The notes under the pieces were generated by a model. It was given only the letters and a program-made list of their open reading frames with translations, searched no databases and was not told where the DNA came from. From a virus: a stretch of 20,419 nucleotides of DNA. This document shows, piece after piece, positions 3,460-19,668 of this stretch (position 1 is the first letter of the stretch; each line of letters starts with the position of its first letter). The position numbers were made by a program, and so were the translations under genes. The DNA is taken from the IMG/VR virus record IMGVR_UViG_3300032668_000165, positions 1-20,419 of that record; one strand, given 5' to 3'.

Positions 3460-4338
3460 ATGTCCAGAATTACTCTTGATAAAATAGAATTCTACATCAC
3501 CAATGTTTGTAATTTAGCCTGTTCTCACTGCAATAGATTTAACGATTATCATTTTACCGGTTGGCAACGCTGGTCTGACTATGCTGATGATTATGCGTTA
3601 TGGTCTAAGTATATTGACTTCAAAAAAATAACAATCCTAGGTGGTGAGCCATTGCTTAATCCTACCATTACTGAATGGATCAAAGGTATTAATCAACTAT
3701 GGCCTGATGCTATTGTGCAAGTACTGACCAATGGCACACGCCTCAACAATGTAGACGGATTGTATGAACTGATGCCAACGGGCACAAGAAATTGGTTGGG
3801 TATAAGTTTACACAATGAATACAATGAAGAAGAAATTTTTACAGAAGTAAAAAGTTTTTTAAAAGGACAAGTCACAGTCCTTGAAGGCAAAAATTCAAAC
3901 TCAGCCGGAGCAGACTGGCTGTATCGAGATGAAAATGGAGTACAAATTGGTATCTGGCGCCAGGATACTTTTGCTCGAGCCGCACTGACCTATACCGCTG
4001 ATAATAAACTAACACTACACAACAGTGATCCGTATCTGGCACATCGTAGTTGTGGATTTGCCACTTGGAAAAATTATCATCTAATTCGCGGAAAATTGTA
4101 CAAGTGTGGACCGGTAGCACTTTTCCCAGAGTTTGACCAGCAACATCCTTTAGAACTATCTCCAGAGGACAGGCAGTTGATCAACAGTTACCAACCATTA
4201 TCCGCCCAGGAGTTTGAAACTCGCGGTGCAGAGTTTTTGGCTAATATAGATAATCCCTTAGCACAGTGCAAATTTTGCCCAGAACGCTATGAAACTGAAA
4301 AGATCTTTGCTATACGCAAAGGTAGCAAAAAACCATAA
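3460..4338 (+). CDS. Radical SAM protein with C-terminal auxiliary-cluster cysteines
   Basis: The 292-residue protein carries the radical SAM signature CNLACSHC (Cys17, Cys21, Cys24, the CX3CX2C ligands of a 4Fe-4S cluster), the GGEP SAM-binding motif at 61-64 (ILGGEPLLNP), and later strand motifs VLTNGT and GISLHN. Four further cysteines (198, 216, 270 and 273, the last pair as CKFC) could hold a second, SPASM/twitch-like cluster. The expected chemistry is reductive cleavage of S-adenosylmethionine to make a 5'-deoxyadenosyl radical; the substrate cannot be inferred. Proteins with this 'CxRFNxYxFTGxQRW' segment are, as I recall, present in T4-like phages of aquatic bacteria without a known role. 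The ATG lies nine bases after the previous stop and has no Shine-Dalgarno sequence. The gene ends inside the promoter of the gp13 gene. Confidence 0.85.
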   Translation: MSRITLDKIEFYITNVCNLACSHCNRFNDYHFTGWQRWSDYADDYALWSKYIDFKKITILGGEPLLNPTITEWIKGINQLWPDAIVQVLTNGTRLNNVDGLYELMPTGTRNWLGISLHNEYNEEEIFTEVKSFLKGQVTVLEGKNSNSAGADWLYRDENGVQIGIWRQDTFARAALTYTADNKLTLHNSDPYLAHRSCGFATWKNYHLIRGKLYKCGPVALFPEFDQQHPLELSPEDRQLINSYQPLSAQEFETRGAEFLANIDNPLAQCKFCPERYETEKIFAIRKGSKKP

Positions 4339-13038: not shown

Positions 13039-13398
13039 ATGGGCTCAGTTAACAATACTAATACCAATATTGATCAATCAGTTCAAATATTTGATAACTT
13101 TTACAAATATGAAGACTTTGTTCCACAGCTCGAGTATGATGCTGTTTACAGTTTTTTTGCCAGCGTTTTTGGCACAACAGAAGCCGCGGCTAATTTTACT
13201 GTAACTTTATTTCGAGTCGCACAACAAAGTCAAATTTCGGTGTTAACATTGTTACAGCAGATTGAAGGACTCAACGGACTTGAATTAAACTTAACACTGG
13301 CATATTATCTAAATAATATTCGTAGCCCTAGTACACTGTTGGGAGTAAATGTACCTACTGCTCCTAATTACTATGCGGCAAGAAATGTAAAAGCATGA
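13039..13398 (+). CDS. Small protein of unknown function in the tail/head block
   Basis: A 119-residue, mostly helical protein. It starts with a polar N-terminus rich in Asn and Thr, followed by FDNFYKYEDFVPQLEYDAVYSFFASVFG, then AAANFTVTLFRVAQQSQISVLTLLQQI, and a final LNLTLAYYLNNIRSPSTLLG. I believe similar short proteins ('EYDAVYSFF ... NFTxTLFRVAQ') occur near tail genes of T4-like cyanophages, where they are labelled structural or hypothetical. A virion component or a tail-assembly chaperone is plausible. It begins four bases after the preceding stop, and its own stop overlaps the next ATG as ATGA, so it is translated with gp4 and the tube proteins. No function is assigned. Confidence 0.75.
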   Translation: MGSVNNTNTNIDQSVQIFDNFYKYEDFVPQLEYDAVYSFFASVFGTTEAAANFTVTLFRVAQQSQISVLTLLQQIEGLNGLELNLTLAYYLNNIRSPSTLLGVNVPTAPNYYAARNVKA

Positions 13399-13826
13399 GT
13401 CATTTTGCCCAGGGTGTCTACACTGTAAAAAACAGAGAGAAGTATGTAGGAAATGGACTTCCTAGATACCGTTCTGGTTGGGAACAGGCATTTATGCGCT
13501 TTTGCGATAACAACGAACACATTCTACAGTGGGCCAGCGAAAGCCTACGCATACCTTATCGTAATCCTATCACTGGAAAAGAAAGCATTTATGTTCCAGA
13601 TTTTTTAATTACCTATCGCACTCGCAACAACACTATGGTTGCCGAAGTAATTGAAATTAAACCAAAAAAACAAAGCGTTATTGAAAGTAAAGCATCTAAT
13701 CGAGATCGTGCGGTAGTGGCTGTTAACTACGCCAAATGGGATGCCGCTACTAAATGGTGTGCCCGTAATGGACTTAAATTTCGGGTAGTAACTGAAGACG
13801 AGTTATTTAAGAACGGCACCAAATAA
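13395..13826 (+). CDS. 4: Head completion protein gp4, PD-(D/E)XK nuclease fold
   Basis: A 143-residue protein close in length to T4 gp4 (150). It carries YRSGWE (25-30; 'YRSNWE' in T4), ILQWASESLRIPY (43-55; 'IIAWGSETAVIPY' in T4), and a restriction-endonuclease-like core: VPDFLI with Asp69, then EVIEIKPKK with Glu87 and Lys89. It ends GLKFRVVTEDEL, matching 'GIKFRILTEDGL'. In T4, gp4 acts with gp2 after packaging to finish the head before the tail attaches; the nuclease-like core suggests trimming or holding the DNA end. The start is coupled to the preceding gene by an ATGA overlap. The gene is followed at once by the small terminase, placing two packaging-stage functions together. Confidence 0.92.
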   Translation: MSHFAQGVYTVKNREKYVGNGLPRYRSGWEQAFMRFCDNNEHILQWASESLRIPYRNPITGKESIYVPDFLITYRTRNNTMVAEVIEIKPKKQSVIESKASNRDRAVVAVNYAKWDAATKWCARNGLKFRVVTEDELFKNGTK

Positions 13827-13844
13827 TACCGGTAAATACGGTAT
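13826..13844 (+). promoter_or_regulatory. Late-type box in the loop of an inverted repeat over the gp16 start
   Basis: GGTAAATA (13831-13838) resembles the late box in its TAAATA core. It sits within a perfect six-base inverted repeat, ATACCG (13826-13831) and CGGTAT (13839-13844), with GTAAATA as the loop. The right arm includes the first two bases of the gp16 ATG, and the left arm begins at the last base of the gp4 stop. With T4 spacing the start site would be about 13844, essentially at the ATG. There is no Shine-Dalgarno sequence. Confidence 0.4.
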
Positions 13845-14363: not shown

Positions 14364-14972
14364 ATGAAACATTTCAGACAATACTTGGCAGAATCAGAAA
14401 AAACCTACAATTATCGTATCAAAATTGTAGGTGAGGTTGATGCAGGCTGGCTCAAGCAGTTAGAAGCCAAATGTCAACAGTTTGACATTGTTAGTTTTGG
14501 TAAACCAAAAACTACTCCTGTGCAATTAGCACCTCAGGATTTTCCAAATCACAAAAACGATTCAGTAACATCAATTGATGTTGAATTCCGTTATCCAGCC
14601 ATCGAGCCACAGATCAAACAACTAGCACAGTTATTGTTTATTGATCCAAATCGTATTATCATGTTGACTACTCCACATGAGAACAGTATGGATGCTGAGC
14701 GCGAAAAGATTGCTACACAGAATAAAGATTTGTTAAAAGACACAGACTATCCAGCTGATGATGCAGAACAACAAGCATTGAAGAAAGATTATTCAGCACC
14801 CTATGATGAACACGCTGTTCTACAAAATGCATATCGCAGTGATTTCACTGTGGCAGGTGGCAAGACTCCGCCAGCAAGAACTACCAATGACGAGCCAATG
14901 GGCAACAAGAGTCCAATGACTAAGATGACTCGCACACCTAAGCCAGCTACTGGCGCACAACCAAGAGGATAA
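14364..14972 (+). CDS. Candidate internal head protein with capsid-targeting-like N-terminus
   Basis: A 202-residue protein. Its first ten residues, MKHFRQYLAE, followed by Ser, match in length and pattern the capsid targeting sequence of T4 internal protein III (MKTYQEFIAE, then Ala, as I recall it), which directs proteins into the prohead and is removed by protease gp21 after L/I-x-E. Next comes a compact alpha/beta domain (YNYRIKIVGEVDAGWLKQLEAKC, VTSIDVEFRYP, IKQLAQLLFIDPNRIIMLTT). From about residue 110 it is a low-complexity charged and then Pro/Thr/Lys-rich tail (TKMTRTPKPATG). Late promoter, Shine-Dalgarno site and position after gp16 mark it as a late gene. The targeting claim is inference from the motif; the domain itself is unknown to me. 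Confidence 0.75.
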   Translation: MKHFRQYLAESEKTYNYRIKIVGEVDAGWLKQLEAKCQQFDIVSFGKPKTTPVQLAPQDFPNHKNDSVTSIDVEFRYPAIEPQIKQLAQLLFIDPNRIIMLTTPHENSMDAEREKIATQNKDLLKDTDYPADDAEQQALKKDYSAPYDEHAVLQNAYRSDFTVAGGKTPPARTTNDEPMGNKSPMTKMTRTPKPATGAQPRG

Positions 14973-17368: not shown

Positions 17369-17725
17369 ATGCGAGCTCGCGAGTTCATTACCGAAGCTAA
17401 TTTTGATAAAGATCATCAATTAGCTATTCCAGGTGCAGAAAAATATATGGGATTAGATAATTCTAATCCATACCATATGTGGAGATACATTGTAGCTACT
17501 GGTGCCAGAGACGGCAAAGGCAACGGTTACAAATTACCACTTGAAGGTCCAACCGGGCAAAAATTAACAACGGTCGCATACAGCAAAGAGGATGAAGAAA
17601 TACTTCATGACACTGCTAAGATGCTTGGATTTAAACCTACCAAAATGAGCAATCGAGACTCTAAAGAGCCAGACGAAATTCATCGTGTTAGCCCAGTTAA
17701 AGGATTCAAAGGGTATGCAAGATGA
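17369..17725 (+). CDS. Capsid-targeted paralogue 1 (internal head protein candidate)
   Basis: A 118-residue protein, first of four tandem paralogues. The N-terminus MRAREFITE followed by Ala fits the T4 capsid targeting sequence (M-K/R ... F-I-x-E, then a small residue), with cleavage expected after Glu9. The body has LDNSNPYHMWRYIVATGA, GPTGQKLTTVAYSKEDEEIL and AKMLGF, and it ends SPVKGFKGYAR. Paralogue 3 shares LDNSNPY, GPTGQK and VAYSK, so these two are the closest pair. AGGA at 17357-17360 lies eight bases before the ATG. The stop overlaps the next start as ATGA, and AAAGGG inside the codons of the C-terminal motif stands eight bases before that start. A role as an injected protein comparable to T4 internal proteins is inference. 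Confidence 0.8.
   Translation: MRAREFITEANFDKDHQLAIPGAEKYMGLDNSNPYHMWRYIVATGARDGKGNGYKLPLEGPTGQKLTTVAYSKEDEEILHDTAKMLGFKPTKMSNRDSKEPDEIHRVSPVKGFKGYAR
17708..17713 (+). promoter_or_regulatory. Ribosome-binding site inside the paralogue 1 C-terminal motif
   Basis: AAAGGG encodes part of FKG in the conserved C-terminus and sits eight bases before the ATG of paralogue 2. The equivalent AAAGG at 18429-18433 serves paralogue 4. Paralogue 3 has only ACGGA at 18077-18081. Confidence 0.6.
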
Positions 17726-18096
17726 GAGCCCGAGAGTTTATAGCTGAACAAGTTGGTGTAATGACCGACTATCAAAGTTCTCCTATGAAAGGGGCCGAGA
17801 TGGTACGAGATGGTGACAACATTGATCGCACCTATCACATGAATCGATTAATGATGGCCATGGCCATGGCTGATGGTAAAGATCGCAAACCGGTTAAAAT
17901 GGATGATTCTGGTTGGACTGAAAAGTTTAATACTGTTCACCCATATACCGAAGAAGAACACAATATGTTGCACCAGGCTATGGGTGCAATTAGTACAGAA
18001 CATGTATCAGGTTTTAAAAATCATCACTCAACTGAACCTAAAGATGTGCATAAAATAAGTCCAGTCACTGGATTCAACGGATATGCACGAAAATGA
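17722..18096 (+). CDS. Capsid-targeted paralogue 2 (internal head protein candidate)
   Basis: A 124-residue protein starting MRAREFIAE followed by Gln, with the same capsid-targeting-like N-terminus (IAE is identical to the last three residues of the T4 IPIII signal). The body is the most divergent of the set: RTYHMNRLMMAMAMADGKD, DSGWTEKFNTVHPYTEEEHN, then LHQAMGAI. It ends HKISPVTGFNGYARK, keeping the family C-terminus. His is frequent. It overlaps paralogue 1 by four bases and its stop overlaps paralogue 3 by four. I recall proteins with 'MAMAxxDG ... HPYTxEE' bodies among unannotated T4-like phage proteins, which suggests this copy belongs to a wider family; a search would settle it. Confidence 0.8.
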   Translation: MRAREFIAEQVGVMTDYQSSPMKGAEMVRDGDNIDRTYHMNRLMMAMAMADGKDRKPVKMDDSGWTEKFNTVHPYTEEEHNMLHQAMGAISTEHVSGFKNHHSTEPKDVHKISPVTGFNGYARK

Positions 18097-18446
18097 GAGC
18101 TCGCGAATTTATCACTGAAGGTTTTGAAGAAAAACTAAGTCAATCCGCTATTGAGGCAATACCGGGAATGGAAAGATTTAATGCCTTAGACAACAGTAAT
18201 CCTTATATGATGTGGAGATTCATTGTTGCGGCAGCAGGCGAACCAGATTTTCCAATGGACCGTTCGGGCCCAACTGGACAAAAATTTGTTACTGTAGCCT
18301 ACTCTAAAGCTGATAAAGAAATTATTGATGCCACCGCAAAGACAATGGGAGTGACTGGAACGCAAATTAGCACAGCGGCTTCTGAAGAACAACCTGGAAC
18401 TGGAATAACCAGCCCTATAAAAGGCTTTAAAGGCTACCCAAGATGA
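18093..18446 (+). CDS. Capsid-targeted paralogue 3 (internal head protein candidate)
   Basis: A 117-residue protein starting MRAREFITE followed by Gly, the gp21-type cleavage pattern. The body has IPGMERFNALDNSNPYMMWR, FIVAAAGEPDFPMDRSGPTG, VTVAYSKADKEIIDATAKTM, and the ending ITSPIKGFKGYPR. It is closest to paralogue 1. The upstream site is weak (ACGGA at 18077-18081), so translation probably depends on coupling to paralogue 2 through the ATGA overlap. AAAGG at 18429-18433, within its own C-terminal codons, is nine bases before the next start. Synonymous codon differences from paralogue 1 in the shared N-terminal motif show that the protein sequence, not just the DNA, is conserved. Confidence 0.8.
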   Translation: MRAREFITEGFEEKLSQSAIEAIPGMERFNALDNSNPYMMWRFIVAAAGEPDFPMDRSGPTGQKFVTVAYSKADKEIIDATAKTMGVTGTQISTAASEEQPGTGITSPIKGFKGYPR

Positions 18447-18829
18447 GAGCTAGCGAATTTATCACTGAGGCCAAGCGTGGAAAATTAAGCGCAGATGAAT
18501 CAAGACCAATGCGCGATACATTTTTCCTTCCTGGCATCCGTAATAACGATGCTTACAAAAGTTATAGATTAAGTTTAGCATTTGCTCGAGCTCGTGTTGA
18601 CAATGCAGGATATGGAGATGAGCTTCCAGAATGGAACGAGCAAGGAGCATTAGGACCATATGCTGTAGTATCAGTAGTAGGAACCAATGGAGAGGACCTA
18701 GTCGATCAGGCATTAAAAATGACCGGGGTTCCGGGTGGAAAAATTAATGTAGCTGGTAACAGTAGTTCGGAGCCAGCTGATGTAAATAAATCTAGCCCAG
18801 TTGCAGGATTTAAGGGCTACGCAAGATAA
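18443..18829 (+). CDS. Capsid-targeted paralogue 4 (internal head protein candidate)
   Basis: A 128-residue protein starting MRASEFITE followed by Ala, the fourth copy of the capsid-targeting-like N-terminus. The body contains PGIRNNDAYKSYRLSLAFAR, LPEWNEQGALGPYAVVSVVG, NGEDLVDQALKMTGVPGGK, and it ends VNKSSPVAGFKGYAR. The central segment aligns with the others at the 'PG-x(6-9)-N-x-x-Y-x-x-x-R' and 'D-x-A-x-K-M/T-G' positions. It is the last of the tandem set; its stop (TAA) does not overlap the next gene, yet the C-terminal GFKGYAR is still present. That argues that the motif is kept for the protein and not only as a ribosome-binding site for a downstream copy. Confidence 0.8.
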   Translation: MRASEFITEAKRGKLSADESRPMRDTFFLPGIRNNDAYKSYRLSLAFARARVDNAGYGDELPEWNEQGALGPYAVVSVVGTNGEDLVDQALKMTGVPGGKINVAGNSSSEPADVNKSSPVAGFKGYAR

Positions 18830-18843
18830 CAAAGGAAAATAAA

Positions 18844-19668
18844 ATGAAAAAAATTATAACAGGGCTATTATTAGTTCTAGCAACAAGTACTGTATTTGCC
18901 TGGACACAACGTCAACCGTTTCCTCCAGCACAATGTCAAGCACACGCACCATACGGATTCCCAGAATCAGCTAAACCAATTCAACCATTATGCCAACAAG
19001 CATATTTGGTAGGGTACGATGCACAGGCAAAATTACCAGAATTTGTTATGTATGAGTTAACTCCTCCTAATGCAATAGGTTGTGTTGCCCGTACTAATGC
19101 ATTTGCCGCTAACCAGTTTGTTCAAAATGGAGCAACACCAGCTGACTATGCTGGCACAGGCTACGACAAAGGACACATGGCACCAGATGGTGACTTGTCA
19201 TGGAACACACAAGTTGAGTTTGAAAGTTTTTTGATGACAAACATGAGTCCACAAGCAGGTTCTTTAAATCGTGGCATCTGGAAATTACTAGAGACCAGTG
19301 TTCGTGGTTGGGCTGTACAACGCAACCAGTCGTACACAGTTATCGCGGGTGGTTTGTATGGTCCTGGTGATAAGACAATCGGTAAAGGTGTAGTTGTACC
19401 ACATGGCTTTTACAAGATTGTAATCAACAATCAAACTAAAGAAGTAGCTGGTTGGGGATTCCCACATACAGCACCATATCCAAACTTAGGCAATGACTTA
19501 ACTAAGTTCCGTGTACCTGTTGCTACTATTATGGCAGACGCACAAGTTAAGTATGCATTACCACAAGGCTATGTTGAATTAGCACCAGGTAAAGAATGGC
19601 CAGTTGATTTTGGTGCATTGACTAATGCTAAACGAGCTAAGTGTGGTGCTAACGCATCAGATGACTAA
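18844..19668 (+). CDS. Secreted DNA/RNA non-specific endonuclease (NUC family)
   Basis: A 274-residue protein with a clear Sec signal peptide: MKK, a hydrophobic core (IITGLLLVLAT), then VFA with cleavage expected after Ala19. The mature part is a beta-beta-alpha-metal nuclease of the Serratia/NucA family. The DRGH box appears as DKGHMAPDGD, with catalytic His111. Asn142 (LNRGIWKLLE) is the metal ligand, and Glu150 and Arg154 keep the +8 and +12 spacing of Serratia nuclease Asn119, Glu127 and Arg131. Four cysteines (31, 50, 80 and one near the C-terminus) could form disulfides in the periplasm. AAAGGA (18831-18836) is seven bases before the ATG. It should cleave DNA and RNA outside the cytoplasm, which would keep it off phage DNA during packaging. 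A signal-peptide nuclease within a T4-like head/packaging block is unusual. Its role (host or rival DNA breakdown, or lowering lysate viscosity) is unknown. Confidence 0.9.
   Translation: MKKIITGLLLVLATSTVFAWTQRQPFPPAQCQAHAPYGFPESAKPIQPLCQQAYLVGYDAQAKLPEFVMYELTPPNAIGCVARTNAFAANQFVQNGATPADYAGTGYDKGHMAPDGDLSWNTQVEFESFLMTNMSPQAGSLNRGIWKLLETSVRGWAVQRNQSYTVIAGGLYGPGDKTIGKGVVVPHGFYKIVINNQTKEVAGWGFPHTAPYPNLGNDLTKFRVPVATIMADAQVKYALPQGYVELAPGKEWPVDFGALTNAKRAKCGANASDD

Follow-up and report, generated by a model that had tools for sequence, protein, structure and literature searches.

Tandem genes with a capsid-targeting-like start probably encode internal proteins packed into the head of a large T4-like phage

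Results

The window analysed here is a stretch of viral DNA of 20,419 nucleotides (positions 1–20,419 of IMG/VR record IMGVR_UViG_3300032668_000165). It contains a cassette of four consecutive genes (Table 1) joined head-to-tail by ATGA overlaps, an arrangement seen in 148 of 167 adjacent pairs of relatives. A sequence-only reading had described these four tandem genes, and its coordinates, lengths, starts and residues following the start were all correct. Each protein opens with MRA(R/S)EFI(T/A)E (hereafter the tag), with I-T-E or I-A-E at residues 7–9. The bodies following the tag had been described as strongly diverged, and this description needs correction: they retain 31–50% pairwise identity (Z = 5.8–21.5 for alignment versus shuffles) and have in common a second conserved stretch, the C-terminal SP(V/I)xGFxGY (SPVxGFKGY in short form), which had been overlooked. 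The four bodies are homologous to each other. Their predicted mature pI values are 8.8, 6.5, 5.1 and 8.2 for genes 1–4, and the family median is 7.4, near neutral.

Table 1. Positions of the cassette, its neighbours and related fusion genes. Slashes mark predicted cleavage positions; CTS, capsid-targeting sequence.
Feature	Position	Strand	Remarks
292-aa frame, CxxxCxxC-type start NVCNLACSHC	3460-4338	+	Resembles a radical SAM protein; structural-region genes on both sides
Head-closure (T4 gp4-like) gene	13395-13826	+	PHROG 218, E = 4.8e-41; syntenic anchor upstream of the cassette
202-aa neighbour	14364-14972	+	CTS-like start MKHFRQYLAE/S; homologue of PA5oct gp282
Cassette gene 1, 118 aa, subfamily B	17369-17725	+	Tag MRAREFITE/A; predicted cut after residue 9
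Nine-residue tag codons, gene 1	17369-17395	+	In the other three genes, bases 1–27
Cassette gene 2, 124 aa, subfamily A	17722-18096	+	Tag MRAREFIAE/Q; placed via an identical copy in locus L001
Cassette gene 3, 117 aa, subfamily B	18093-18446	+	Tag MRAREFITE/G
Cassette gene 4, 128 aa, subfamily B, second type	18443-18829	+	Tag MRASEFITE/A; end SPVAGFKGYAR; placed via the L001 copy
DNA/RNA non-specific endonuclease	18844-19668	+	PF01223, E = 4e-38; directly after the cassette
In-frame cytidylyltransferase-like/family fusions	Loci L343, L349, L350, L358, L359, L376, L385, L386, L394, L404 and others		Tag internal

In genes 1 and 3, the codons of the C-terminal K-G (AAR GGN; window positions 17700-17725 and 18420-18446) lie ~9 bases before the next ATG and could also provide the ribosome-binding site of the copy that follows. 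A role of the C-terminal FKGY solely as the ribosome-binding site of the next gene was ruled out, because FKGY persists in 101 of the 153 copies that have no overlapping copy after them. The start of the endonuclease that follows the cassette resembles a secretion signal peptide (MKKIITGLLLVLATSTVFA), which is unusual for a phage nuclease.

Six tag residues besides Met (R2, A3, E5, F6, I7 and E9) are invariant in the four copies, and each is encoded by at least two different codons; the similarity therefore does not come from recent DNA copying. Purifying selection was found throughout (pN/pS 0.18 for the tag, 0.275 for the body and 0.19 for the C-terminus, with pS near saturation), and the tag ratio, obtained with pS = 0.69 over 1,461 pairs of relatives, shows that the protein sequence is constrained. 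The earlier claim that the shared start is under selection at the protein level is thus upheld. Among 261 distinct family members, which were taken in via a loose form of the tag, residue 9 was Glu in 258 and residue 7 was I, V or L in 257; the Phe was invariant among family members, and position 10 was mainly G, A, Q, S or D. The loose form was present in 345 of 379 complete profile matches, the other 34 being mostly fusions or shifted forms. CTS-like starts numbered 3, 4 and 6 in three large relatives versus 0.07–0.12 expected, and thus do not reflect chance.

The start had been likened to the T4 CTS, and the likeness held in part. The T4 IPIII tag is MKTYQEFIAE. The window tag keeps its Phe, Ile and Glu, and with them the I-x-E end, but it is one residue shorter, so that F6 and E9 stand in place of F7 and E10, and it has R-A in place of K-T-Y, leaving Tyr4 without a counterpart. 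Targeting of IPIII depends chiefly on residues 4 and 7 and its processing on residues 8 and 10, and the cleavage motif of gp21 is L/I-X-E (PMC9026906). No description of an MRAxEF-type motif was found in the open-access literature searched.

A profile search identified 246 copies of the family in 107 fetched IMG/VR loci (1–4 per locus, usually 2–4). Loci fetched solely through the neighbouring head-closure gene also hold the family at the same place, ~4–5 kb downstream; therefore, the synteny is not an artefact of locus choice. The tree has two old halves, subfamilies A and B, which lie side by side in most genomes. Median identity between phages was 62% for B bodies and 49% for A bodies, compared with 62% for the neighbour at 13843, 74% for head closure and 71% for the tail tube. 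In conservation, the family bodies thus come close to the structural genes around them, B being equal to one neighbour and A somewhat less conserved.

Searches for known relatives returned little. Three members used as tblastn queries found no copy of the family among 50,697 isolate phage records, the four window proteins had no credible match in Pfam, PHROGs, PADLOC or, by sequence, the PDB, and no sequence match between cassette proteins and T4 proteins was found. PDB profile matches to an S-layer protein (E = 0.0037) and to Myb/SANT domains (E = 0.12–0.25) were weak and short and were dismissed. Two AlphaFold models had mean pLDDT values of 86 and 83 with pTM of only 0.53, and contained few helices and long coil. 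The subfamily B model had no PDB fold match (Foldseek, VIA-align), and its one BFVD match was another uncharacterised phage protein. Mature T4 IPI* showed no credible likeness to the family by sequence, nor by fold to the subfamily B model (PDB).

These data bear on the function proposed in the sequence-only reading, in which the cassette encodes injected inhibitors of host defence of the T4 IPI kind, with bodies made variable by an arms race. The resemblance of the tag, the tandem copies and the precedent of IPI*, which inhibits a restriction enzyme (PMC3012670), would all fit such inhibitors. However, the subfamilies are old, ordered, syntenic and shared between phages, the body pN/pS ratio is that of purifying selection, and B bodies equal a neighbouring structural-region gene in identity, A bodies being somewhat less conserved; divergence through host-specific targets is not supported. 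The lack of a PADLOC match also counts against this alternative, with the qualification that PADLOC models cover defence rather than counter-defence. We consider it unlikely, and inhibition of host defence by the cassette proteins is unproven.

The S77 (gp21-type) protease and gp23 were sought in two sets of large records (14 and 13) carrying the family or the tag. S77 was present in 18 of 18 records with a full-size gp23, 15 of which carry the family and the rest the tag on other bodies, and in 0 of the 9 remaining records, which have no gp23 or just a short piece of it; two of these nine (L336 and L367) are chance pattern matches. The association of the family with a gp21-type protease anticipated in the sequence-only reading was therefore found in all 15 family-bearing large records of relatives with a full-size gp23; the window itself, a 20-kb fragment without S77, is too short to be informative on its genome. 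These results place the tag in T4-like phages that possess a gp21-type protease, co-occurrence alone being no proof that the protease cuts the tag. At the place of T4's cleavage site, gp23 of these large records reads KYLKE/NASAG, KQLLAE/SSAG or KYLAE/AATAG, resembling the tag end EFITE/A and the YLAE/S of the 202-aa neighbour. Cutting of the tag by S77 is supported by this similarity of the gp23 sites. One gp23 match (L446, record G010, 193317-194306) contains an in-frame TAA stop, for which a sequencing error, an intron or recoding is conceivable.

Those proteins entering the prohead that have to remain whole are expected to avoid L/I-x-E inside their bodies. In 173 non-redundant family bodies we counted 25 L/I-x-E sites versus 89 expected, a depletion whose size is inflated because relatives share ancestry but whose direction is the same in both family halves; in each half, L/I-x-E was the most depleted of the motifs tested. 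Across 570 long reading frames of three such genomes, nearly all untagged, there were 1759 sites versus 1430 expected. The 58 other tagged bodies among the matches listed had 89 versus 97 expected, below general frames and not clearly depleted.

This measure bears on a further alternative, that the family consists of prohead core (scaffold-type) proteins like T4 gp67 and gp68, the start of which binds the core and which shape the head rather than act as ejected effectors. Such a role would suit bodies that are conserved about equally with the head and neck genes with which they are syntenic, and that always form a small set. Core proteins, however, get cut into several fragments (PMC9026906), and the one gp22 scaffold checked is rich in L/I-x-E (17 sites versus 6.9 expected), whereas the family bodies are poor in it. 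We regard a core-protein role as quite unlikely. Neither this alternative nor the inhibitor alternative excludes packaging; both are variants of the possible role of a packaged protein. Near the family, proteins with an MKSLxEYLxE start (e.g. L113, 11320 onward) are rich in L/I-x-E (89 versus 42 expected) and may be core proteins that are cut into pieces.

For the 202-aa neighbour, 66 distinct relatives with a CTS-like start were found in 87 loci. The closest isolate by gene order is Pseudomonas phage PA5oct, a jumbo phage whose record marks proteins detected by mass spectrometry (MS). Its head region has the same gene order around the tail tube and head closure as the window, and its gp23 site is FLVE/N; unlike the window, it yielded no member of the four-gene family by tblastn with three members. 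PA5oct gp282, a 31% homologue of the neighbour, is marked as MS-detected, its own start (MKSFRDYYDAS) being without the Glu. CTS-like starts were not measurably enriched among MS-marked PA5oct proteins (2/90 versus 4/308 unmarked), numbers too small for a direct test of the tag, and this use of the MS marks was dropped.

A DNA-pattern scan of IMG/VR for MRAxEF and, directly after it, one hydrophobic residue, one free position and Glu gave at least 156 matches, of which at least 154 are plausible protein starts. The tag starts fall into at least 64 body clusters, at least 61 of them outside the four-gene family. Pfam names on tagged bodies included, among the matches listed, class I chitinase, LysM, tail lysozyme, GNAT acetyltransferase, ADP-ribosyltransferase (PF03496, in L311), ParB_N and polyvalent-protein kinase. 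In L209 (6855-10903; record G006, about 266.9–270.9 kb), a second run of tagged genes in direct succession encodes unrelated bodies, one of them a two-domain GNAT acetyltransferase. Several adjoining tagged genes are also found in L314 (1405-5690, – strand), their bodies being mutually unrelated and without a Pfam match. The same pattern with Lys at residue 9 was not a clean negative control, because in many of its matches the tag is present and its Glu has merely moved a few residues on, and was used to examine spacing instead: in these Lys9 forms, [LIVM]-x-E was regained within residues 7–16 in 26 of 57, versus 2–4 in later intervals of the proteins.

In-frame fusions between a cytidylyltransferase-like protein (PHROG 3041) and a family body occur at about a dozen loci, and they keep MRAQEFMRKQLAEG or a close variant of it mid-protein (Table 1). 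A retained cleavage motif explains the internal tag better than a translation-start feature does, but translation might also begin internally, at the Met retained there. The fusions are possibly polyproteins cut in the prohead. The ATGA overlaps and the position of the tag at the very start might suggest that it serves translation initiation, or is some other N-terminal property of genes that overlap tightly, and is not a protease tag; this is very unlikely given its protein-level conservation with synonymous change, its presence on some genes only, a Glu that is nearly invariant or, where shifted, often followed by [LIVM]-x-E, and its persistence inside fusions.

Discussion

We conclude that the cassette proteins are likely to be capsid-targeted internal proteins that a large T4-like phage packs into its head. 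The tag, homology, synteny, protease co-occurrence, similar gp23 site, internal-site depletion and modularity were computed. Prohead packing and trimming after residue 9, as predicted in the sequence-only reading, are well supported by inference from the motif, S77, the gp23 site, the loss of internal sites and the unrelated tagged bodies. The motif regained in Lys9 forms, the tag inside fusions, the tagged ADP-ribosyltransferase and the MS-detected homologue of the 202-aa neighbour also speak for this conclusion, whereas the missing Tyr4, the near-neutral mature pI, the almost expected number of L/I-x-E sites in the other tagged bodies and the PA5oct counts speak against it. For the cassette proteins we infer core binding, cleavage, virion location and ejection in the following way. 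Residues 1–9 would be a capsid-targeting propeptide that retains the protein within the scaffold core while the prohead assembles. S77 would then cut after Glu9 and free a body of about 108–119 residues, which would stay with the packaged DNA and probably be ejected along with it. Phages of this kind attach the tag to many further proteins of unrelated sequence. Analogy with T4 makes delivery into the host plausible, and the bodies most likely perform some conserved task in the head or early in infection rather than acting as host-specific decoys.

T4 internal proteins are typically basic. IPI, IPII and IPIII resemble the cassette proteins in their short N-terminal start ending in F-I-x-E, their small bodies, the gp21-type protease and the use of the tag on differing bodies. 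In contrast, the cassette bodies belong to a single family whose C-terminus is conserved; their pI is near neutral, and their sequence is conserved from phage to phage. Basicity does not define the class of CTS-bearing head proteins, because Alt, an ejected ADP-ribosyltransferase of T4 (PMC9026906), also enters the head. The enzyme class of Alt is matched by the tagged L311 protein, whereas the four window proteins belong to no recognised enzyme family.

The breadth of the tag is the more interesting point than the four genes alone, the cassette being a variation on the known T4 type of capsid-targeted proteins. MRAxEF(I/L/V)xE may serve a large, mostly uncultured group of T4-like phages as a general tag for packaging. 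It would bring a large and interchangeable cargo into the head, among it acetyltransferases, ADP-ribosyltransferases, ParB-like nucleases, kinases and wall hydrolases, in a way comparable to the marking of bacterial effectors by secretion signals; we consider the case for this general-tag proposal, including its cargo, to be evenly balanced. If it is true, the tag alone would list injected proteins from sequence. If the packaging of the cassette proteins is right, the capsid-targeting idea of T4, worked out in one coliphage, would extend to a large environmental phage group with a testable cleavage site, and a nine-residue start would read the head-carried, delivered proteins of large phages, most of them of unknown function, from raw metagenomes.
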